DNA from: Syntrophobacterales bacterium
GTDB taxonomy: Bacteria; Desulfobacterota; Desulfobaccia; Desulfobaccales; 0-14-0-80-60-11
Direction of reading: 5' to 3'
Assembly (NCBI GenBank): GCA_020052215.1
Contig: JAGVPN010000077.1
Coordinates: 1-6,896 of the forward strand
DNA length: 6,896 bases
The translations under genes were made by a program, and so were the position numbers. The notes beneath the pieces are model-generated. The model had not been told where the DNA came from. It saw only the letters and a program-made list of their open reading frames with translations, and did no database searches. Below are positions 1 through 6,896 of the stretch, one piece after another. How positions within the stretch are numbered: the stretch's first letter is position 1; each line of letters starts with the position of its first letter.

Positions 1-366
1 GTCACCCGGGTAAAAATCATTGAACTCCTGAAGACCCAGGGGCCTTTAGGGGCCATGGAAATCGCCAAGCAATTGGGGGTCACCCCTGCCGCGGTGTCGC
101 AGCACCTGAGATTACTGAGGCAATCCGGCCTGGTGCGGAGCGAGAGAAAAGGGTATTGGATTCCCTATTCCATTGACGAAGAGGCGTTGGCAAAGTGTGG
201 CCGCCAGTTGGCCGAAGTCTGCACCTGCGGATGCAAAGGGACCGGCGCCTGGCGGGATCAAGAACAGGCTAATACCGATCTGGAGTCGCTGCAGAGGTAT
301 CAAAGGGAATTGCAAACCGAACTCAGCTTGGTGGATGCCAGAATTAAGGAATTGAAGCCTAAATAA
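1..366 (+). CDS. ArsR-family regulator with C-terminal CxCxC cluster and coiled coil (5' truncated)
   Basis: The reading frame is open from base 1, and the start codon lies outside the window. Alignment with the paralogue at 3424-3831 suggests that about 14 N-terminal residues are missing. The visible 121 residues hold a winged helix-turn-helix with the ArsR hallmark region TPAAVSQHLRLLRQSGLVRS (recognition helix) and a wing around RKGYWIPYS. After the DNA-binding domain come C66 and the cluster CTCGC (C74, C76, C78), then a predicted coiled coil from LESLQRYQ to the end. ArsR/SmtB proteins are cytoplasmic dimeric repressors that leave DNA when they bind metals or oxidants. The Cys cluster outside the HTH is the likely sensing site here, which is inference. 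A Cys-rich 60-aa protein follows, apparently in the same transcription unit, with an operator-like palindrome between them. The inducer cannot be named. Confidence 0.9.
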   Translation, partial: VTRVKIIELLKTQGPLGAMEIAKQLGVTPAAVSQHLRLLRQSGLVRSERKGYWIPYSIDEEALAKCGRQLAEVCTCGCKGTGAWRDQEQANTDLESLQRYQRELQTELSLVDARIKELKPK

Positions 367-453: not shown

Positions 454-636
454 ATGTGTACCCCCAGAGGACAGCATCCGGGTCCGGTGTGTCGTTGCGA
501 CTGCGGCTGTGGCCTTTCTTTCCGCAAGTTCTTTTCCACCAAAGAAGAACTGGATAGCCTGGAAAACTACCGGGACCAGTTGAAGAAAGAACTGGCCGGG
601 GTTGAGGAGCACCTGGGAAAGCTCAAAGGGCAGTGA
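454..636 (+). CDS. 60-aa Cys-rich coiled-coil protein, putative metal-binding
   Basis: This small soluble protein has an N-terminal Cys-rich head (C2, C13, C15, C17, C19; core CRCDCGCG) and a charged helical tail from about residue 30 to 58 with heptad-like leucines. The tail and Cys motif match the C-terminus of the two ArsR proteins in this window. From LDSLENY onward, about 10 of 28 residues are identical to the first regulator's tail without a gap. The function is unknown. Metal or metalloid chelation, or pairing with the regulator through the coiled coil, would fit. It starts at ATG 454 behind a 13-nt Shine-Dalgarno and ends at TGA. The frame stays open past that TGA into the next small gene, but the intervening residues look non-coding and the next gene has its own very strong ribosome-binding site. 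I know of no named family; a distant resemblance to short DUF5320-like proteins is possible. Confidence 0.8.
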   Translation: MCTPRGQHPGPVCRCDCGCGLSFRKFFSTKEELDSLENYRDQLKKELAGVEEHLGKLKGQ

Positions 637-738: not shown

Positions 739-858
739 ATGGCAGACCAGCAAAAGAAGTGCGGCTGTGGCTGTGGCCTGGCCGTGCCTCAGAACCAGGG
801 TGGGAAAGATAGCGCCCAAGGTAAGAAAGAGGCCGAAGACCCCAAAGCCACGAAGTAG
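739..858 (+). CDS. 39-aa CGCGC peptide, metallothionein-like candidate
   Basis: The predicted protein is MADQQKKCGCGCGLAVPQNQ followed by 19 charged, Lys/Glu-rich residues, ending at TAG. The only cysteines are C8, C10 and C12 in a compact CGCGC motif, suited to binding a soft metal or metalloid. There is no signal peptide or membrane segment. It resembles the 34-aa protein at 3904-4008 in length, in the position of the Cys motif and in its hydrophilic tail (MAxQxK...CGCGC). That recurrence, plus the ideal ribosome-binding site, supports it as a real gene despite its size. The role is inferred only: metal buffering, or delivery to or from the neighbouring ArsR and CopD-like proteins. Confidence 0.75.
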   Translation: MADQQKKCGCGCGLAVPQNQGGKDSAQGKKEAEDPKATK

Positions 859-957: not shown

Positions 958-1461
958 ATGAACTTGATTGTTTTGAGCTTAAGTCACTTTATCCATTTAT
1001 TCGCCACCGTGATCTGGATCGGCGGAATTTTTATGGTTCTCCTGGTAATCCTTCCCAGCGCCAGGACCTCGCTGGAATCGACCGCTATGGCGGCATTAAT
1101 GAAGGAAATTACCGGGAAATTCACTCCCCTGGCAAACGCCAGTATCTTGGTGATGGTTATCACCGGGATTATCATCGCCTTGTATAAAGAGAAATTCGGT
1201 GGATTTTTCAATATGGGCGACTTCTGGAATGGTACTTTGGTCTTCAAACATCTTTTGGTAGCCTTGATGATAATCATTCACTTTTACCGGGGACTGGTAT
1301 TAGCTCCCAGAATCGGGAAATTATCTGCTGAAGCCGCGGGATCACCTTCTTTATCTGCTCAAGTTGCCAGGCTGCAAAAGTTTTCATTAAATCTCGTTAA
1401 AGCCAACTTTGGCTTGGGGATCATGGTCTTATTGGTTACCGCGGTTTTGATGTCGAAATGA
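958..1461 (+). CDS. CopD-like / DUF-type four-helix inner-membrane protein
   Basis: This 167-aa integral membrane protein has about four hydrophobic helices (roughly residues 4-32, 58-76, 94-116 and 148-165). The opening HFIHLFATVIWIGGIFMVLL is typical of CopD-domain and related small membrane proteins, where paired histidines and the W-I-G-G motif recur. H10, H13, H98 and H108 lie in or next to membrane segments and could ligate haem b or a metal ion. CopD proteins are linked to copper handling or act as small cytochrome-b-like membrane subunits. The substrate cannot be read from this sequence. It follows the Cys-rich peptide genes by 99 nt and may belong to their transcript, with a hairpin in between. 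The gene ends at TGA used as a normal stop: no conserved sequence follows it. Confidence 0.75.
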   Translation: MNLIVLSLSHFIHLFATVIWIGGIFMVLLVILPSARTSLESTAMAALMKEITGKFTPLANASILVMVITGIIIALYKEKFGGFFNMGDFWNGTLVFKHLLVALMIIIHFYRGLVLAPRIGKLSAEAAGSPSLSAQVARLQKFSLNLVKANFGLGIMVLLVTAVLMSK

Positions 1462-1550: not shown

Positions 1551-1571
1551 GGCGGAGGAGAGTATCTAGAA

Positions 1572-2216
1572 ATGGCCAACATCTTTGAAGAATCGGCTCA
1601 AGAATACGATGACTGGTTTATCCGAAATGAGTTCGCCTACCAATCCGAACTGGCGGCGATCAAAGCCTTCATGCCGGAAGAAGGCCGTGGTTTGGAAATC
1701 GGGGTGGGAACAGGGCGATTTGCCGCGCCGCTGGGAATTGAAGTGGGGGTGGAGCCGGCCAAGGCCATGGCCGCAATCGCCAGGAAACGGGGAATAAAAG
1801 TCCTGGAGGCCTATGCGGAAGAACTTCCTTTGGAGAATGGATCATTCGATTTTGTCCTGATGGTCACCGTCCTCTGCTTCCTGGCAGACCCGTTTCGAGC
1901 CTTGCGCGAAGCTACCAGGGTATTGAAACCGCGAGGCCGCCTGATTATCGGCATGATTGACCCTGACAGCCCGCTGGGCCGGGCTTATGAGGCAAACAAG
2001 AAAAAGAGCCGGTTTTACCGCCAGGCAAAATTTCACTCGTTGGGCCAAGTCTTAAAATGGTTGGAAGACCTTGGTTATGCCGATCTTAAGACCTGCCAAA
2101 CCATCTTTCAAGACTCGGCGACCGTCAAGGCGCCGCAGCCGGTGAACGAAGGCCATGGTGAAGGGGTCTTTGCAGTAATCGCCGGAGAAAAATCCGGTGC
2201 GGTTCCTCCTTGCTGA
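1572..2216 (+). CDS. Class I SAM-dependent methyltransferase
   Basis: This 214-aa soluble Rossmann-fold methyltransferase of the Methyltransf_11 type has motif I LEIGVGTGRF (residues 41-50), which binds S-adenosylmethionine. The acidic residue after motif I is E61, and motif II / post-II spans about ELPLENGSFDFVLMVTVLCF (84-103). LKPRGRLIIGMID (118-130) is motif III. The acceptor cannot be assigned. Its place among ArsR-controlled redox genes makes a metalloid, thiol or small-molecule target thinkable but unproven, and the Cys triad of ArsM arsenite methyltransferases is not evident (only C102, C175 and C214). ATG 1572 is chosen because the upstream in-frame codons overlap the promoter. GGAGGAG (1554-1560) is the likely ribosome-binding site, with a long spacing. 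The gene has its own promoter and ends 2 nt from the convergent VTT gene. Confidence 0.85.
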   Translation: MANIFEESAQEYDDWFIRNEFAYQSELAAIKAFMPEEGRGLEIGVGTGRFAAPLGIEVGVEPAKAMAAIARKRGIKVLEAYAEELPLENGSFDFVLMVTVLCFLADPFRALREATRVLKPRGRLIIGMIDPDSPLGRAYEANKKKSRFYRQAKFHSLGQVLKWLEDLGYADLKTCQTIFQDSATVKAPQPVNEGHGEGVFAVIAGEKSGAVPPC

Positions 2217-2218
2217 CG

Positions 2219-2917
2219 CTATCCAGTCTTAATGCCCTGCCAGAACTTCAGTTTGTTGATGATCTTGGGAATAAACAGGGAAAAGACGAAGAGCCCCAGG
2301 GAAAAGAACACCTTCCAGGTCAGGAGATTGGCCCACTGGCCGCTGCCCCAGACTTCTTTGATGGTCCCCACGAAAAAGGTGAAGATAAAAGTGCCCACCA
2401 GGATGCCTAAGCCTGTACCCCAGAGGTAATCCCGAAAGCCCACTTTGGTCAGACCCATGCCGAAGTTCATGGCCGTGAAAGGGAAATAGACCAGGCGCAG
2501 ATAGAGCACGGTGGCAAAGCCGTTTCGTTCGATGGCGTCATCGTATTTCTTGAGTCGGTCGCCGATGAGAGAGGCGGCGAACTCTCGGCCCAGGTACCGC
2601 CCGATGAGAAAGCCCCCCGCGGCCCCCAGCATGGCGGCCACCCAAACATACAAGAATCCCCAGTAGGGGCCGAAAATGGCGGCCCCCAGGGCGGTGAGCA
2701 GGGTCCCGGGAATGAACAGGCAGACCCCCAGAGCATAGACCAGGATGAAGGCCAGGGGCGCCCAGATTCCCGCGGCCGCGAGCAGGGCCCCGAACTTCTC
2801 CACGGTGAGGAATTCCCTGACGCCGGTAAAACGGATCATCACCACCGCAGCCACGATGAACATTAGCAGGAGCATGGCTTTTATTAAGGCTGCCCCACGA
2901 AATCTGCGGGTCTGCAT
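2219..2917 (-). CDS. TVP38/TMEM64 (VTT-domain) family membrane protein
   Basis: This 232-aa inner-membrane protein has a basic N-terminus and then a first helix at about residues 12-30. The VTT/SNARE-associated core has the family's re-entrant motif from GVCLFIPGTLLTALGAAIFG (64-83) to the following G-x-x-G, the GRYLGR turn (106-111), and RLVYFPFTAMNFGMG (141-155) before the last helices. The length is normal for TVP38/DedA-like proteins. Members are polytopic and are associated with membrane homeostasis and lipid or solute transport. Family members also turn up near mercury and selenite resistance genes, but the transported species is not established. It starts at ATG 2917 behind GAGGT and follows the Sec Trx-like gene by 85 nt, in a region with two tandem hairpins, so the two are probably co-transcribed. 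It ends 2 nt from the convergent methyltransferase stop. Confidence 0.88.
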   Translation of the reverse strand: MQTRRFRGAALIKAMLLLMFIVAAVVMIRFTGVREFLTVEKFGALLAAAGIWAPLAFILVYALGVCLFIPGTLLTALGAAIFGPYWGFLYVWVAAMLGAAGGFLIGRYLGREFAASLIGDRLKKYDDAIERNGFATVLYLRLVYFPFTAMNFGMGLTKVGFRDYLWGTGLGILVGTFIFTFFVGTIKEVWGSGQWANLLTWKVFFSLGLFVFSLFIPKIINKLKFWQGIKTG

Positions 2918-3002: not shown

Positions 3003-3320
3003 TTACTTGCCGAAGAGGCGGCCCAGGAAGCCTTTCTTTCGGGGCTCCGGCTCCGGCAACCCCAGGTGCCGGCAGATGACGGCCTCCAGTTTATCTTCGG
3101 CGACATCGGCGCCTTCCACCACGATTTCCTCTCCCACCATGATGGCCGGGGCCGTGGGGAGATCCAACTGGAAGTATTCGTCGGTCTGGTAATCGGCAAT
3201 GGGCTTGGAGATGATCTCCGCTTCAAACTCATACTTTTGGCCCAACCTGGGCAGCATCTTTTGGAAGTGCTTTCAGGGTTTGCCGTTGGGCTCGTTGTAA
3301 AAGCATCTGACTTTGAGCAT
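3003..3320 (-). CDS. Selenocysteine-containing thioredoxin-fold protein A (Sec16)
   Basis: The gene starts at ATG 3320 (AAGGAG 5 nt upstream) and encodes 105 aa if the in-frame TGA at 3273-3275 is read as Sec16. The fragment after that TGA alone would lack the first beta strand and active site of the fold. The N-terminus MLKVRCFYNE-PNGKP-Sec-K places Sec at the end of the beta1-alpha1 loop, where thioredoxin-fold proteins carry CxxC. The cis-proline motif TAPAIMV (P58) faces it, as in glutaredoxin/thioredoxin folds. It aligns gap-free with protein B at 4105-4386 over about 89 residues (roughly 40 identical), including the TGA and the following hairpin. No resolving Cys lies next to Sec; C6 and C83 are the only cysteines. 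A basic tail (RKKGFLGRLFGK) may touch the membrane. It is probably a cytoplasmic redox carrier. The partner is unknown, though a VTT gene follows it and a DsbD-type fusion lies in the neighbouring operon. Confidence 0.85.
3240..3254 (-). promoter_or_regulatory. Candidate bacterial SECIS hairpin of Trx-like A
   Basis: On the mRNA strand the site is CTGCCCAGGTTGGGC: stem GCCC/GGGC with loop AGGUU, the loop lying 28-32 nt from the first base of the UGA. Bacterial SECIS elements are short stem-loops just downstream of UGA with G residues in the apical loop, such as the AGGUCU loop of E. coli fdhF. The same 15 nt occur at the same distance in Trx-like B. Confidence 0.65.
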
Positions 3321-3355
3321 TTTTTCTCCTTTAGGCTAAGTTTTTCAAAAAAACC

Positions 3356-3386
3356 TTGACAAGGGTCTTGTCCTGCACTATATAAT
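3356..3386 (+). promoter_or_regulatory. Sigma-70-like promoter of the second ArsR cassette
   Basis: A consensus TTGACA lies at 3356-3361. The -10 is either TATATA (3379-3384, 17-nt spacer) or TATAAT (3381-3386, 19-nt spacer). The palindrome at 3384-3403 overlaps the -10 and the transcription start, the classic position for autorepression by an ArsR protein. Confidence 0.7.
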
Positions 3387-3403
3387 TAAGCAAATACTTA
3401 ATT
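3384..3403. promoter_or_regulatory. ArsR-type operator palindrome in the divergent promoter region
   Basis: AATTAAG and CTTAATT are perfect inverted repeats around CAAATA. The site lies between the divergently transcribed regulator (3424) and Sec Trx-like A (3320), so one bound dimer could repress both. The half-site ATTAAG recurs at 3854-3877, and a related TGCTTAAT core lies at 406-427. Confidence 0.65.
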
Positions 3404-3423
3404 GCCTAATTGGATCAGCGCTC

Positions 3424-3831
3424 ATGGAATGGGAAATTGCCGAAATGTTCAAGGTCCTGGCCGTGGAAACCCGGGTGAAGATACTCGAACTCTTGAAGAC
3501 CCAAGGCCCATTGGGGGCCAAAGAAATCGCCAGACTGAGGGGTATCACCCCCGCGGCGGCCTCGCAGCATCTCAAGATTTTGAAGCAGGCCGGACTGGTA
3601 AGAAGCGAACGCCAGGGATATTGGATACCGTATGCCGTTAACCCGGAGGCCTTGGAAAAATACCGCCAGATCTTGTCGGAAGTTTGCACCTGCGGCTGCC
3701 AGGGTAGCGGCCAATGGCGAGAACAGGAGCGAGGCGCAACCTCTCTGAAGACCCTGGAGCAATACGAACAGGACCTGCAAAATGAGCTTAAAAATGTGCG
3801 CCAGAGGATCAAAGAGCTGAAGCCGGAATAG
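3424..3831 (+). CDS. ArsR-family regulator with CTCGC cluster and coiled coil (paralogue of 1-366)
   Basis: This is a complete 135-aa cytoplasmic regulator: N-terminal helix MEWEIAEMFKVLAVETRVKI, winged HTH at about residues 34-70 (recognition region TPAAASQHLKILKQAGLVRS), Cys cluster C88, C90, C92, and a coiled coil at about 107-133. Most ArsR proteins of about 100 aa lack such a tail. There is no Cys in the alpha3 helix, unlike classical ELCVCDL ArsR, so sensing should use the C-terminal cluster; this is inference. The ribosome-binding site is poor, in sharp contrast to the peptide gene behind it, so little regulator and much peptide are expected from one mRNA. Operator palindromes lie on both sides of the gene. 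Sequence similarity to the regulator at 1-366 runs through the whole protein, so the two cassettes look duplicated. The ligand is unknown. Confidence 0.92.
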   Translation: MEWEIAEMFKVLAVETRVKILELLKTQGPLGAKEIARLRGITPAAASQHLKILKQAGLVRSERQGYWIPYAVNPEALEKYRQILSEVCTCGCQGSGQWREQERGATSLKTLEQYEQDLQNELKNVRQRIKELKPE

Positions 3832-3853
3832 AAGGAAGCGCTTTTTTTTCTCA

Positions 3854-3877
3854 ATTTAATTAAGTGCTTAATTAAAT
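3854..3877. promoter_or_regulatory. Perfect 11-2-11 palindrome, candidate operator before the 34-aa peptide
   Basis: The arms ATTTAATTAAG and CTTAATTAAAT match perfectly around TG, a size like the 12-2-12 sites of ArsR/SmtB proteins. The core ATTAAG/CTTAAT equals that at 3384-3403. It lies 26 nt before the peptide start and directly after a T8 run, the same order as in the first cassette. No clear -35/-10 pair is visible, so it may act as a roadblock or serve an internal promoter. Confidence 0.65.
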
Positions 3878-3887
3878 ACCTAAACAG

Positions 3888-3898
3888 AAAGGAGGTGA
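3888..3898 (+). promoter_or_regulatory. Extended Shine-Dalgarno of the 34-aa peptide
   Basis: AAAGGAGGTGA is complementary to 11 bases of the 16S 3' end and lies 5 nt before ATG 3904. It is the third such leader in front of a Cys-rich mini-gene in this window. Confidence 0.75.
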
Positions 3899-3903
3899 GT
3901 ACG

Positions 3904-4008
3904 ATGGCTGAACAGAAAAGCGCCTGTGGGTGCGGCTGCGCCTTGAAGAAAGGCAACGCCGAGGCCACCAAACCCCAGCAGCAGGCTGAAAAGCCCAAGG
4001 AGAAGTAG
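3904..4008 (+). CDS. 34-aa CGCGC peptide, metallothionein-like candidate
   Basis: The predicted protein is MAEQKSACGCGCALKKGNAE followed by 14 residues rich in Lys, Gln, Glu and Pro, ending at TAG. Its three cysteines (C8, C10, C12) sit at the same positions as in the 39-aa peptide at 739-858. The hydrophilic tail suggests a flexible soluble protein. It follows a paralogous regulator by 72 nt, with a perfect palindrome and an 11-nt Shine-Dalgarno in front, which argues strongly for a real, regulated and highly translated gene. Binding of a thiophilic metal or metalloid through CGCGC is inferred from composition. No family name is known to me. Confidence 0.75.
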   Translation: MAEQKSACGCGCALKKGNAEATKPQQQAEKPKEK

Positions 4009-4023
4009 ATCAATGGATTAACC

Positions 4024-4070
4024 AGCCCGAGGGGGAGGTTGAGAGATAGAGCCCGCCCCCTCGGCTTATT
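4024..4070. terminator. Hairpin terminator between convergent operons
   Basis: CCGAGGGGG (4027-4035) and CCCCCTCGG (4056-4064) form a perfect 9-bp GC-rich stem with a 20-nt loop, followed by TTATT. A few more pairs are possible with a one-base bulge. It lies between the 34-aa peptide stop and the end of the converging selenoprotein operon and could stop transcription from both sides. The T-tract is short, so efficiency is uncertain. Confidence 0.65.
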
Positions 4071-4104
4071 ATGATTATCTGTCTGCCGCGCGTGACTGCC
4101 CATT

Positions 4105-4386
4105 TCATTCCATTGAGGCTGGCAGTTGCAGATGCCGTCGGATAACCGCTTCTACTTTCTCTGCCGAGAGGGTTGGCCCCTGGTCGGCGATTTCGTCTTC
4201 GACCATCACCGCCGGGGCCGCGGGTAGTCCCGAGGCCAGGTAAGTCTCGCTCTGGTATGCTTCCCTGGACTGTAAAATTTCCTCCACCGTAATGTCGTAT
4301 TTTCCGCCCAACCTGGGCAGAATCTCGTGGAGGCGCTTTCAGGTCAACCCACAGGGGTCGTTCACAAAAACTCTGATTTTGAGCAA
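4105..4386 (-). CDS. Selenocysteine-containing thioredoxin-fold protein B (Sec16)
   Basis: The gene encodes 93 aa from a TTG start at 4386, with AAGGAG 7 nt upstream and an N-terminus collinear with protein A (MLKxRxF). The in-frame TGA at 4339-4341 is codon 16, exactly as in protein A. The active-site loop reads NDPCGLT-Sec-K, so a C12-x3-Sec16 pair is possible here; protein A has Asn at position 12. Cis-proline P58 (AAPAVMV) completes a thioredoxin/glutaredoxin-like site. The terminal TGA (4105-4107) acts as a stop: the sequence beyond is not conserved with A. It is the last gene of the minus-strand operon, 20 nt after the rhodanese-DsbD-thioredoxin fusion. It is therefore a good candidate for the cytoplasmic electron donor or acceptor of that membrane protein (inference). 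It lacks the basic tail of A. Confidence 0.83.
4306..4320 (-). promoter_or_regulatory. Candidate bacterial SECIS hairpin of Trx-like B
   Basis: The 15 nt CTGCCCAGGTTGGGC are identical to those in Trx-like A and lie at the same distance (22-36 nt counted from the UGA). GCCC/GGGC closes an AGGUU loop. The flanking codons differ between the genes, so the identity here, including synonymous positions, stands out. Confidence 0.65.
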
Positions 4387-4406
4387 AGCGATTCTCCTTG
4401 GCAAAT

Positions 4407-6143
4407 TTATTTCTTTACGGCCGCCGCCATGCGGGAGAGCATCTGCTCCGGCGGCAGATAATCCACCATTCGCAAGTCCAGGCATTCCCGGCCCTGCTTA
4501 TCTATAAAGACCACAGTGGGCACTCCCTTGACCCCATACTGGCAAAGCAAACGCTCATGCACGGGGTTCCCTTTCTGGGTCAGGTCCAGCTTGACCATGA
4601 CAAAATCCCGGTCCGCTATTTTCACCACATCTGGATGATGAAAGGTGATGTCGTCCAGTTCCCGGCAGGGGGTGCACCAGGTGGCGTAGAAATCAATGAT
4701 CACCGGCTTGTGCTCTTTCACCGCTTGGGCCAGGAGTTGGTCCGAATATGGCTGCCAGGCTACTCCCGGGCCCCGCAGCGCCCAGGACCCCGCCAGGAAG
4801 GTGGCGATGATTATTCCCAGCAGGGCGGCGATGGTTTTGACCCACTGGAAACTTCGGAACGTCGCGGTGGTGCGGTCCAGCCACCCCAAGTGCACCGCCG
4901 CGGCCAGGGCTACGGCAGCCAGCAGGAACATGCTGACGGATTCGGGCAGCAAAGGTTTGATGAAATAGGCCGCCATGCCCACCAGGACCCACCCCATGAG
5001 CTTGCGCACCCAGAGCATCCACTCCCCGGACCGTGGCAGTTTCTCCAGGCTGCCGGAAAAGATGGCCAGGATAAAGAGGGGCAGGCCCAATCCCAGGCTG
5101 AGGGTGAAAAAGACTAGGAAACCTAGCAGAGGAGAACCCATACTGGCCACCCAGGTGAGCAACCCCAGCACGAAGGGACCGATACAGGGCGCCGCCACCA
5201 ACCCCAGGGTCAATCCCATGAACAGACTGCCGAAGTAGCCCGCATAGGACTTGGAAGCCGCCTGAGTGAGACCGCCTGGCAAGCGCAACTCCCAGAAGCC
5301 GAAGAGGCTGGTGGCAAAAAACACCAGGATGGCGGCCACGGCCAGCAACACTATGGGATTCTGCAGCATGGCCCCCATGAGGCCGCCGGTTAAAGCCGCC
5401 GCCACCCCCAGGGTAGAGTTGGTCAGGGCCAGGCCCACCAGATAAAAAAGGCCGTGCACCAAGAGCCGCCCCTGACCTTGACCGCTCTTACCGCCAAAAT
5501 AGGAGACCGTGATGGGCAGTAAGGGATAAACGCAAGGCGTCAGGTTGAGAGCCATGCCGCCTACAAAAATGCCGAGCATGGTCCAGACCATGGCCCAACC
5601 GGAAAGCAAGCCGGGGGCATAGGCCTCCGGTGCGTAATCGCACAACCCCAGGGGATCGCTGGCCACGGGGAGCCTCTGGTTTTGCCATTCCGGGTACCCC
5701 AACGGATCGCGATAGACGTTTTTGTAACCGAGCTTTACGGCCACCCGGGCCGCCGAGTCGCTGCGGACTCAGGCCAGGCCCGCTCAGTAAAAAACAATGA
5801 GCCGGTCCTTATCGGGTCCCAGAAAATTGCTTAAGGCCCTCTCGGAGCGCCACCGCCCCCAGGCGGTGGGCTCTATGGGAAAGTTCACGGCTCCTTGGAT
5901 GTGGCCGGTGCGATATTCCCAATCCTGCCGAGTATCCACCAGCAAGAGCTTGCCGGCGTCCTGCCGGTAGCGCTGCGCCAGTTCTTCGGTAGTTATCAAG
6001 CGATAGCCGCCGCTTTGGGCTTCGGCCTTGACGTCCTCCCAGGTGGCCTCTTTAACGATGATCGGCCGGTTGAGATACCAAAGAACACTTAACGTCAGGG
6101 CTGCGGCCGCCAGGGCTAAAAGGGTGGTTCCCTTCCGTTGCAT
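4407..6143 (-). CDS. Two-selenocysteine rhodanese - DsbD - thioredoxin membrane fusion
   Basis: This is one 578-codon frame from ATG 6143 to TAA, interrupted only by TGA at codons 120 (5784-5786) and 125 (5769-5771). Residues 7-24 form a signal anchor. Residues about 50-155 are a rhodanese domain: LLLVDTRQDWEYRTGHIQGA, then the catalytic loop IVFY-Sec-AGLA-Sec-VRSDSAA, where Sec120 replaces the catalytic Cys, then LGYKNVYRDPLGYPEW. Residues 180-456 form about eight helices of a DsbD/CcdA-type unit with the two membrane cysteines, C204 in NLTPC and C320 in AAPC. Residues 465-578 are a thioredoxin domain with WCTPC (C490, C493) and cis-proline P542. DsbD moves electrons from cytoplasmic thioredoxin to the periplasm. 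Here the usual N-terminal DsbD-alpha domain is replaced by the selenorhodanese, and both soluble domains should face the periplasm. It lies 18 nt after the upstream gene. A nonsense-mutated gene is unlikely: both TGAs sit at Cys-type sites and the frame continues perfectly. Confidence 0.88.
5738..5752 (-). promoter_or_regulatory. Candidate SECIS hairpin for Sec125 of the fusion
   Basis: On the mRNA strand CGGCC and GGCCG form a 5-bp stem, with one more G-U pair possible, around the loop CGGGU. The loop lies 25-29 nt from the second UGA. A G-rich loop ending in U resembles the AGGUU loops of the two Trx-like genes. Confidence 0.55.
5753..5772 (-). promoter_or_regulatory. Candidate SECIS hairpin for Sec120 of the fusion
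   Basis: CTGAGTC and GACTCGG form a 7-bp stem (one U-G pair) around CGCAGC, 22-27 nt from the first UGA. The second UGA lies inside its 5' arm, and the next hairpin starts immediately after it. The loop lacks GGU, so this element is less typical. Confidence 0.45.
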
Positions 6144-6161
6144 TTGCCTACCTCGTTGCGG

Positions 6162-6614
6162 TTAAGATATTTTCCCTTCCCTCGACAATTTGGACATGAG
6201 GAAATTGGCTCCCCGCTCAGACAGCCCGAGCTTATGGGCCAAGTCTTCGGGTTTCAAGGGGCCGTGCTGTTTAGCCAGCGAGACCACCTCGTTTTCCAAT
6301 TCGTCCAGCCAATCTTCAAACAGGACCAGGAGTTCCGGGTCGGCAACAGCCATCAGTTGCCGTGATTGCGCCACCCGGTTCACCAGCTTTTGACACATGT
6401 GCGTTGGATCGACACCTTCGTCCAGGCATTCCGCCAGTCAGAGGTGCACCAGGCTGGCCACCTGGTCATCACCAGCGCCGCCGATGAGATTGACCACGAA
6501 ATTCAGCCGATCCTCATCCGTAACCAGAGGCAGGATTTTTTTCAGCGCCGCCCCAATTTCCGTAAGAGCTTTTTCCGGCGTCATGCGGTCTAAACGTTCT
6601 TGAATTCCGGCCAT
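6162..6614 (-). CDS. Uncharacterised selenoprotein with C-terminal winged-helix-like region (Sec59)
   Basis: This 150-codon frame runs from ATG 6614 to TAA with one in-frame TGA at codon 59 (6438-6440). The context VASLVHL-Sec-LAEC gives a Sec59-x3-Cys63 pair on what looks like an amphipathic helix; C74 follows. The N-terminal half (TPEKALTEIGAALKKILPLV, then DRLNFVVNLIGGAGDDQVAS) is helical and unfamiliar to me. Residues about 100-150 (LAKQHGPLKPEDLAHKLGLSERGANFLMSKL) look like a winged helix-turn-helix. There is no membrane segment or signal peptide. GGAGGTGAT, 8 nt before ATG 6614, supports the start. The gene lies 22 nt after an ArsR gene and 18 nt before the selenorhodanese fusion. A cytoplasmic redox- or metal-responsive regulator or adaptor is plausible but unproven. 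GAAGGU, 22-27 nt from the UGA, sits in a weak 3-bp stem, so its SECIS is the least convincing of the set. Confidence 0.78.
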
Positions 6615-6636: not shown

Positions 6637-6896
6637 TTAAAAGGTTGTTCTGGCAGCCAATAAATCTGTGGCCAATTCTTTTAACGCCTCCAGGATCGTC
6701 AGAATTCTGGAATCGGCGATTTCGTAGTACACGAAGGGGCCGCTCCGCTCCACCTTGACCAGCAGGGCCCGCCGCAATTCCTTCAGATGGTGGGAGACCA
6801 GGGGCTGGGACAGGTTCAGTTCTTCCACAATGCTGGAAACGGACTTCTTCTCGTTATTGACGCACAGCAAAATCCGCAAGCGGTTTTCATCCGCGA
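6637..6896 (-). CDS. ArsR-family transcriptional regulator (5' truncated by window end)
   Basis: The 85 visible codons run in from beyond the window end to TAA. ADENRLRILLCVNNEKKSVS is the family's N-terminal helix region, where most homologues have a run like (L)ADxxRLRIL. It is followed by the helix-turn-helix SIVEELNLSQPLVSHHLKEL and a beta wing at RSGPFVYYEIAD. It lacks the CTCGC cluster and coiled-coil tail of the other two regulators, and its only visible Cys is in RILLCVNN, so it belongs to a different subgroup. It heads the selenoprotein operon (22 nt before the next start) and probably represses it from a promoter outside the window. The true start is not visible; an internal TTG at 6879 is not a credible start because the conserved domain extends upstream of it. 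Confidence 0.9.
   Translation of the reverse strand, partial: ADENRLRILLCVNNEKKSVSSIVEELNLSQPLVSHHLKELRRALLVKVERSGPFVYYEIADSRILTILEALKELATDLLAARTTF

Follow-up and report, generated by a model that had tools for sequence, protein, structure and literature searches.

A copy of the Tso operon with five in-frame UGA codons, probably decoded as selenocysteine, in a Syntrophobacterales bacterium

Introduction

Are the five in-frame TGA codons that interrupt four neighbouring minus-strand frames in a Syntrophobacterales bacterium (assembly GCA_020052215.1, contig JAGVPN010000077.1) termination signals, or are they read as selenocysteine (Sec), and to what kind of system would the encoded proteins then belong? 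We addressed this question in a window (i.e. the whole stretch of DNA analysed, 6,896 nt) that represents one whole contig (C44) of a 2.83 Mb genome (514 contigs, 72.8% complete). Judged by its sequence, the cluster is a further copy of the named Tso operon (tsoR-tsoA-tsoB-tsoC together with a second tsoC), real and not new in kind, and we consider it probable (roughly 0.88) that its five UGAs are decoded as Sec via downstream hairpins and that its proteins act at the inner membrane as a thiol-redox relay based on selenium.

Tso counts among the larger selenoprotein operons described. The part of the 2026 review PMC13188914 considered here names TsoA, TsoB, TsoC and the Tso operon (three selenoprotein operon), cites Haft & Tolstoy 2025 (mSystems 10:e0141724, doi 10.1128/msystems.01417-24) for it, and states no experimentally tested Tso function; among the literature matches listed it was the only one on Tso. 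At the nucleotide level, the present locus and those related to it add evidence of UGA recoding, in the form of covarying hairpins inside coding sequence. They also suggest likely partners, namely a second tsoC and a membrane protein of the VTT type, and the 15-base distance between the two predicted Sec codons of tsoB makes a testable case.

Results and discussion

Frames and family membership

A preliminary description of the window had reported four minus-strand frames that are whole only if five TGAs are read through, and both the frames and the TGA positions were recovered (Table 1). Once TGA is read through, tsoA, tsoB and the second tsoC are open from end to end with no other in-frame stop, and the first tsoC is nested in a longer read-through frame (4075-4485), with a TGA as its own terminator. 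For each of the four frames, a single named family gives a match that extends across the TGA or TGAs (Table 1). The starts and spacings are ordinary, as had been remarked, with ATG for tsoA, tsoB and tsoC2, TTG for tsoC1, a purine-rich site before each, and gaps of 18-22 bases along tsoR-tsoA-tsoB-tsoC1 (all on the minus strand); TGA also terminates genes in the window, tsoC1 included.

The likeness to Tso lies in the families (TsoA, TsoB and TsoC in addition to TsoR, five genes above all curated NCBIfam cut-offs), in the arrangement (adjacent genes on one strand with TsoR upstream, R-A-B-C1) and in the motifs LULAxC, UxxxxU and GxxU, which are as tabulated in the part of PMC13188914 considered here. 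What differs is the second tsoC, found downstream with a mini-protein gene and a divergently oriented ArsR-type gene in between, and followed by a VTT gene. In this light, the adjacency of four selenoprotein genes is real, as previously claimed, while their density is not unusual for an operon already known as Tso; the ArsR control proposed at the same time fits the predicted regulator TsoR encoded upstream. The two tsoC copies are of different types, tsoC1 belonging to an 8-member NDPCGLTU/NEPCGLTU clade (support 0.911, 56-sequence tree) and tsoC2 being of the common NEPNGKPU type; tsoC is present at least twice in 20 of 80 related loci. Another multi-selenoprotein operon, SAO (Sec-assisted organometallic; PMC13188914, in the part considered here), comprises six other selenoprotein genes, and none of the window's NCBIfam matches is named SAO.

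Table 1. Coordinates of genes, predicted Sec codons, SECIS-like hairpins (SECIS, selenocysteine insertion sequence) and neighbouring features in the window
Feature	Coordinates	Strand	Predicted Sec codon	Remarks
tsoA, LULAxC selenoprotein, 150 aa	6162..6614	-	59 (6440-6438)	NF045695 TsoA, 224 bits (cut-off 170)
tsoB, rhodanese/DsbD-like/thioredoxin selenoprotein, 578 aa	4407..6143	-	120 (5786-5784) and 125 (5771-5769), UxxxxU	NF045694 TsoB, 1014.8 bits (cut-off 805)
tsoC copy 1 (tsoC1), NDPCGLTU type, TTG start, TGA stop, 94 aa	4105..4386	-	16 (4341-4339)	NF045708 TsoC, 110.6 bits (cut-off 45)
tsoC copy 2 (tsoC2), NEPNGKPU type, 105 aa	3003..3320	-	16 (3275-3273)	NF045708 TsoC, 145.9 bits (cut-off 45)
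tsoR, ArsR/SmtB-type regulator	6637..6894	-		NF045707 TsoR, 151.4 bits (cut-off 115), profile 15-99 of 99; 5' end cut by contig end
tsoA hairpin, GGACGA, loop AGGUG, UCG-A-UCC	6406..6423	-		loop 20 nt past UGA
tsoB UGA120 hairpin	5755..5770	-		loop 18 nt past UGA120; stem includes bases of UGA125
tsoB UGA125 hairpin, six pairs	5737..5753	-		loop 21 nt past UGA125
tsoC1 hairpin, GCCCA, loop GGU, UGGGC	4306..4318	-		loop 25 nt past UGA
tsoC2 hairpin, GCCCA, loop GGU, UGGGC	3240..3252	-		loop 25 nt past UGA
VTT-domain membrane protein gene, downstream of tsoC2	2219..2917	-		Pfam VTT_dom, 83.3 bits
Second ArsR-type gene (ArsR2), CTCGC stretch, divergent from tsoC2	3424..3831	+		NF033788, 83.1 bits (cut-off 55)
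ArsR-type gene, CTCGC stretch	1..366	+		
Cys-rich mini-protein genes	454..636, 739..858, 3904..4008	+		34-60 aa
CopD-like membrane gene	958..1461	+		
Methyltransferase gene	1557..2216	+		
Palindrome before tsoC2/ArsR2	3385..3402			ATTAAGCAAATACTTAAT
Palindrome before mini-protein gene	3859..3872			ATTAAGTGCTTAAT

Conservation of the UGA codons and the Sec machinery

The related loci (best 80 of 537 confirmed matches, designated by L numbers) were retrieved with a query read through its UGAs, so that Cys forms may be under-represented among them; the closest relatives are genomes assembled from metagenomes, with the labels Deltaproteobacteria, Desulfobacca or Desulfobaccales, and one of the loci, L039, is from a cultured organism, Desulfoprunum benzoelyticum DSM 28570. 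Both TsoB columns hold TGA in 79 of the 80 loci (the remaining one being truncated), and the counts for the other two families, which include the window's own genes, are 86 of 87 frames for TsoC (with a single TGC, in L075) and 48 of 51 for TsoA (the three others being two fragments and the AGA of L065). Since the same TGAs recur across related loci, chance or assembly error is disfavoured. In L065, where AGA (Arg) replaces UGA in tsoA near 2460, the neighbouring tsoR, tsoB and tsoC look intact. Around the predicted Sec residues, C63 and C74 of TsoA are invariant in 47 aligned sequences (from the 48 TGA-bearing frames, all selected for TGA at the column), as is G13 of the TsoC GxxU motif in 56 (from 83 available, all selected for TGA at column 16).

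Cys at the UGA columns, which the preliminary description had proposed as a check, was found in TsoB and once in TsoC (L075), and in TsoA in none of the sequences examined, a point on which that description needs correcting. The TsoB cases carry Cys at both columns (P0002, P0016 and the G278:C128 locus, L109) and make up at most two independent ones, because the G278 locus looks near-identical to P0016 over the stretches compared. In L109 the Cys-Cys tsoB frame runs from about 4375, and the same genome also has a UGA form; neither TsoA nor TsoC was found in the 11-kb stretch surrounding it. Among the 120 homologues listed per family (out of 6183 for TsoB, 2179 for TsoC and 475 for TsoA), the column is covered by two for TsoB (both Cys-Cys) and by four for TsoC (all W).

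As for the Sec genes, for which a genome search had also been suggested, profile searches of the genome placed selA (570.3 bits, match beginning at profile position 53), selB (365.9 bits) and tRNA-Sec (74.7 bits) above cut-off, and ARAGORN agreed on the last (tRNA-SeC, anticodon tca); selD was met with as a weak match below cut-off (24.3 bits), a 91-aa C-terminal open frame cut at a contig end. Within the phylum, SelB is above cut-off in 263 of 297 genomes and TsoB in 14 of 297 (15 matches, 14 with two TGA and one with none), a SelB base rate too high for TsoB-SelB co-occurrence to be of use as a test. The selenoprotein reading of the preliminary description is thus strongly supported, by Sec genes in the genome, TGAs kept in relatives and conserved SECIS-like hairpins.

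SECIS-like hairpins downstream of the UGA codons

The published bacterial SECIS model (PMC13188914, in the part considered here) places the loop 16-37 nt after the UGA and a G in the first two loop bases, and the hairpins found after the window's UGAs conform to it (distances in Table 1). Their conservation was scored across distinct sequences, in 48 of 51 for TsoA, 85 of 87 for TsoC and 78 of 81 for TsoB (of the three TsoB frames left out, L094 is truncated, and L018 and L089 did not fit the motif pattern used, even though UxxxxU is present in L018). The TsoA hairpin is paired in 287 of 288 cells with 13 two-sided changes, the TsoC hairpin in 416 of 425 cells with nine, and the TsoB UGA125 hairpin in 461 of 468 cells with 28; for none of the three was either value reached in 500 shuffles. 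Slid registers pair less in all cases, the nearest being TsoB slid by -3 (357/468) and TsoC slid by -1 (244/425). Furthermore, when mutual information was ranked over 81 third-position pairs per gene, the predicted pairs 17-29 and 20-26 came first and second in TsoB and the predicted pair 20-32 came first in TsoC; the TsoA helix contains no third-third pair and is hence unranked. Codon choice was also counted at the TsoC loop: wherever the codon that carries the loop GG encodes Arg, it is AGG (74 of 74 sequences, the other 9 of 83 having a different residue there), as compared to 261 AGG among the 2169 Arg codons of TsoB frames.

The UGA120 hairpin of tsoB has 380 paired cells out of 390, yet two-sided changes are absent and it does no better than its shuffles. 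Its support is codon choice at two residues: the Val after UGA125 is encoded by GTC or GTT in 75 of 75 cases (3 of 78 frames have Ala), as opposed to 1910 among the 3734 Val codons of TsoB frames, and the Asp codon is GAC in 77 of 78, as opposed to 730 of 1528. A blind hairpin scan requiring four unbroken pairs passed four of the five window UGAs (missing the bulged TsoA stem), and was dropped in favour of covariation because 101 of 285 ordinary codon positions pass as well. An Rfam search of the window returned five weak matches, none at gathering score.

Proposed function of the Tso proteins

The domain composition of TsoB (Pfam Rhodanese 53-155, DsbD_TM 187-398, Thioredoxin_7 462-548, the last carrying CTPC) resembles DsbD in its DsbD_TM part and C-terminal thioredoxin domain, and departs from it in having an N-terminal rhodanese domain with UxxxxU and in scoring 238.4 bits on the NCBIfam DsbD model (PRK00293), below the cut-off of 330. 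TsoC2 is predicted (AlphaFold2, mean predicted local distance difference test (pLDDT) 91.9) to adopt a thioredoxin fold, in which the first helix spans 14-29 and U16 is close to its beginning; all six matches in the PDB at E <= 0.001 are thioredoxins, the best being S. aureus thioredoxin 2o7k (E 1.1e-4, TMq 0.54). The thioredoxin active-site motif is CGPC, with which the GKPU of TsoC aligns by eye; TsoC differs in having GxxU instead of CxxC and in its 14-25% identity among the 50 matches listed, and the Pfam Thioredoxin_3 match of TsoC1 reaches only E 0.067. The TsoA prediction is helical (mean pLDDT 74.7, predicted template modelling score 0.39) with low confidence around Sec; it has no PDB match at E <= 0.001, and its C-terminus gives a winged-helix-like hint only (HTH_24, 19.1 bits vs a cut-off of 21.9).

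On the basis of these domains, electrons from cytosolic thioredoxin may pass through the DsbD-type membrane part of TsoB to its CTPC thioredoxin domain and from there to the rhodanese domain, whose UxxxxU loop would be situated outside the membrane. A diselenide or Se-S-Se bond in this loop could then open and close as a substrate is reduced, conceivably sulfane sulfur, an oxidised thiol or else a metalloid. In the cytosol, TsoB would have two partners, TsoC with its predicted thioredoxin fold and GxxU motif and TsoA with its predicted helical structure and U-C-C residues, and TsoR would be the repressor of the Tso genes.

Several observations weigh against this reading. The sequences themselves show open frames, membership of the named families, conserved UGAs and hairpins and the Sec machinery genes, and it is from these that we infer Sec insertion at the five UGAs; the topology, electron path and substrate are derived from domain names. 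Within the machinery, selD is represented by a below-cut-off fragment only. Regarding the hairpins, the one after UGA120 is devoid of covariation (because its bases hardly vary), the two-sided changes are all at the outermost pair in TsoC (20-32) and all at 16-29 in TsoA, and the shuffles ignore relatedness among sequences. For TsoA no Cys form was seen, the 12 of 120 listed homologues (of 475) that cover the column all having W, and since the intact TsoA frame of L065 has Arg in place of U, the U is possibly not essential. TsoR is without any Cys in some members (L050, L051) and without a conserved one in the 12 members inspected, so that a Cys-based metal or thiol sensor is disfavoured. Moreover, in the search made the full R-A-B-C order is not displayed by 25 of the 64 well-flanked loci, among them 10 in which R, A and C are all missing.

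Alternative explanations

The alternative that survives best retains the selenoproteins and changes their purpose: they would serve metal(loid) or selenium detoxification within a metal-handling island, not sulfur/thiol redox. The neighbourhood lends itself to such a view, with ArsR-type genes (tsoR, ArsR2 and the one at the contig start), CGCGC mini-proteins at three places (Table 1), and a CopD-like gene and the VTT gene nearby. However, the mini-protein accompanies only 7 of the 80 loci (six with a strong ArsR2 relative, L028 with weak ones), the core operon is far wider, and the absence of a conserved Cys in the TsoR members inspected also speaks against it; we therefore regard detoxification as a possible role that is appreciably less likely than not to be the right one.

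A very improbable alternative is that the UGAs are real stops, either in decayed genes or between halves that function as separate genes (e.g. a 445-aa DsbD-like frame from GTG at 5744). It draws on the database homologues, since 118 of the 120 listed for TsoB and 116 of the 120 for TsoC do not cover the column, most entries being the part downstream of the UGA. Against it stand the same UGAs in 79 of 80 loci, conserved protein on both sides and covarying hairpins, and the truncated entries look like gene-caller artefacts, because the full-length entries listed for TsoA (12) and TsoC (4) have W at the column, as if TGA had been read as Trp. Such full-length TsoC/TsoA entries with Trp at the Sec column (P0121, P0132, P0201, P0206, P0241-P0251 and P0254) apparently come from short contigs on which TGA was called Trp.

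Genome-wide reassignment of UGA to Trp or Gly, to which these W residues in some database entries might appeal, is more improbable still, given that TGA ends other window genes (tsoC1 among them) and many TsoC/TsoA relatives at conserved C-termini, that SelB, SelA and tRNA-Sec are encoded in the genome, and that relatives have Cys at both TsoB columns. Gene decay and genome-wide recoding were accordingly rejected on the recurrent UGAs, the covarying hairpins, the use of TGA as terminator and the Sec machinery.

Gene neighbourhood

Among the 64 well-flanked loci, 39 have R-A-B-C in order, 12 only C, 10 none of R, A and C, two R-A without C, and one only R. Neighbour clustering of the 80 loci and the window revealed few recurring partners beyond the Tso genes: VTT in 28 loci, another ArsR-type family in 11, a methyltransferase in nine and a response regulator in nine. 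In 23 of the 80 loci a VTT gene follows tsoB on the same strand at a distance of 73-2144 bases; a literature search for TVP38 together with selenoprotein found nothing. The same divergent ArsR-type gene as in the window occurs between two tsoC genes in L018, L019, L032 and L066.

We consider three parts of the locus worth following: the two tsoC copies with their separate flanks, the neighbouring VTT gene and the hairpins in tandem. A more speculative proposal is put forward tentatively, and we deem it rather unlikely to hold in full. Decoding of tsoB might proceed via two back-to-back hairpins, with the second Sec codon within the first stem, the ribosome opening one recoding signal in order to reach the next; in addition, the Tso relay might be split into separately regulated arms, one consisting of TsoR-A-B-C1 and the other of an ArsR2-controlled TsoC2-VTT with Cys-rich mini-proteins. 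The two palindromes of Table 1 are possible ArsR2 operators.

The ArsR-type genes at 1-366 and 3424-3831 are related to each other, share the CTCGC stretch and are both situated upstream of Cys-rich mini-protein genes. Each of the three mini-protein genes is preceded by AAAGGAGGTGA, and none of the products has a Pfam or NCBIfam match above cut-off; the related loci with a CGCGC mini-protein (34-40 aa) are L018, L019, L022, L028, L029, L032 and L066. The CopD-like gene has relatives in L022 and L029, and at the threshold of the search 10 of the 80 loci contain a relative of the methyltransferase gene.

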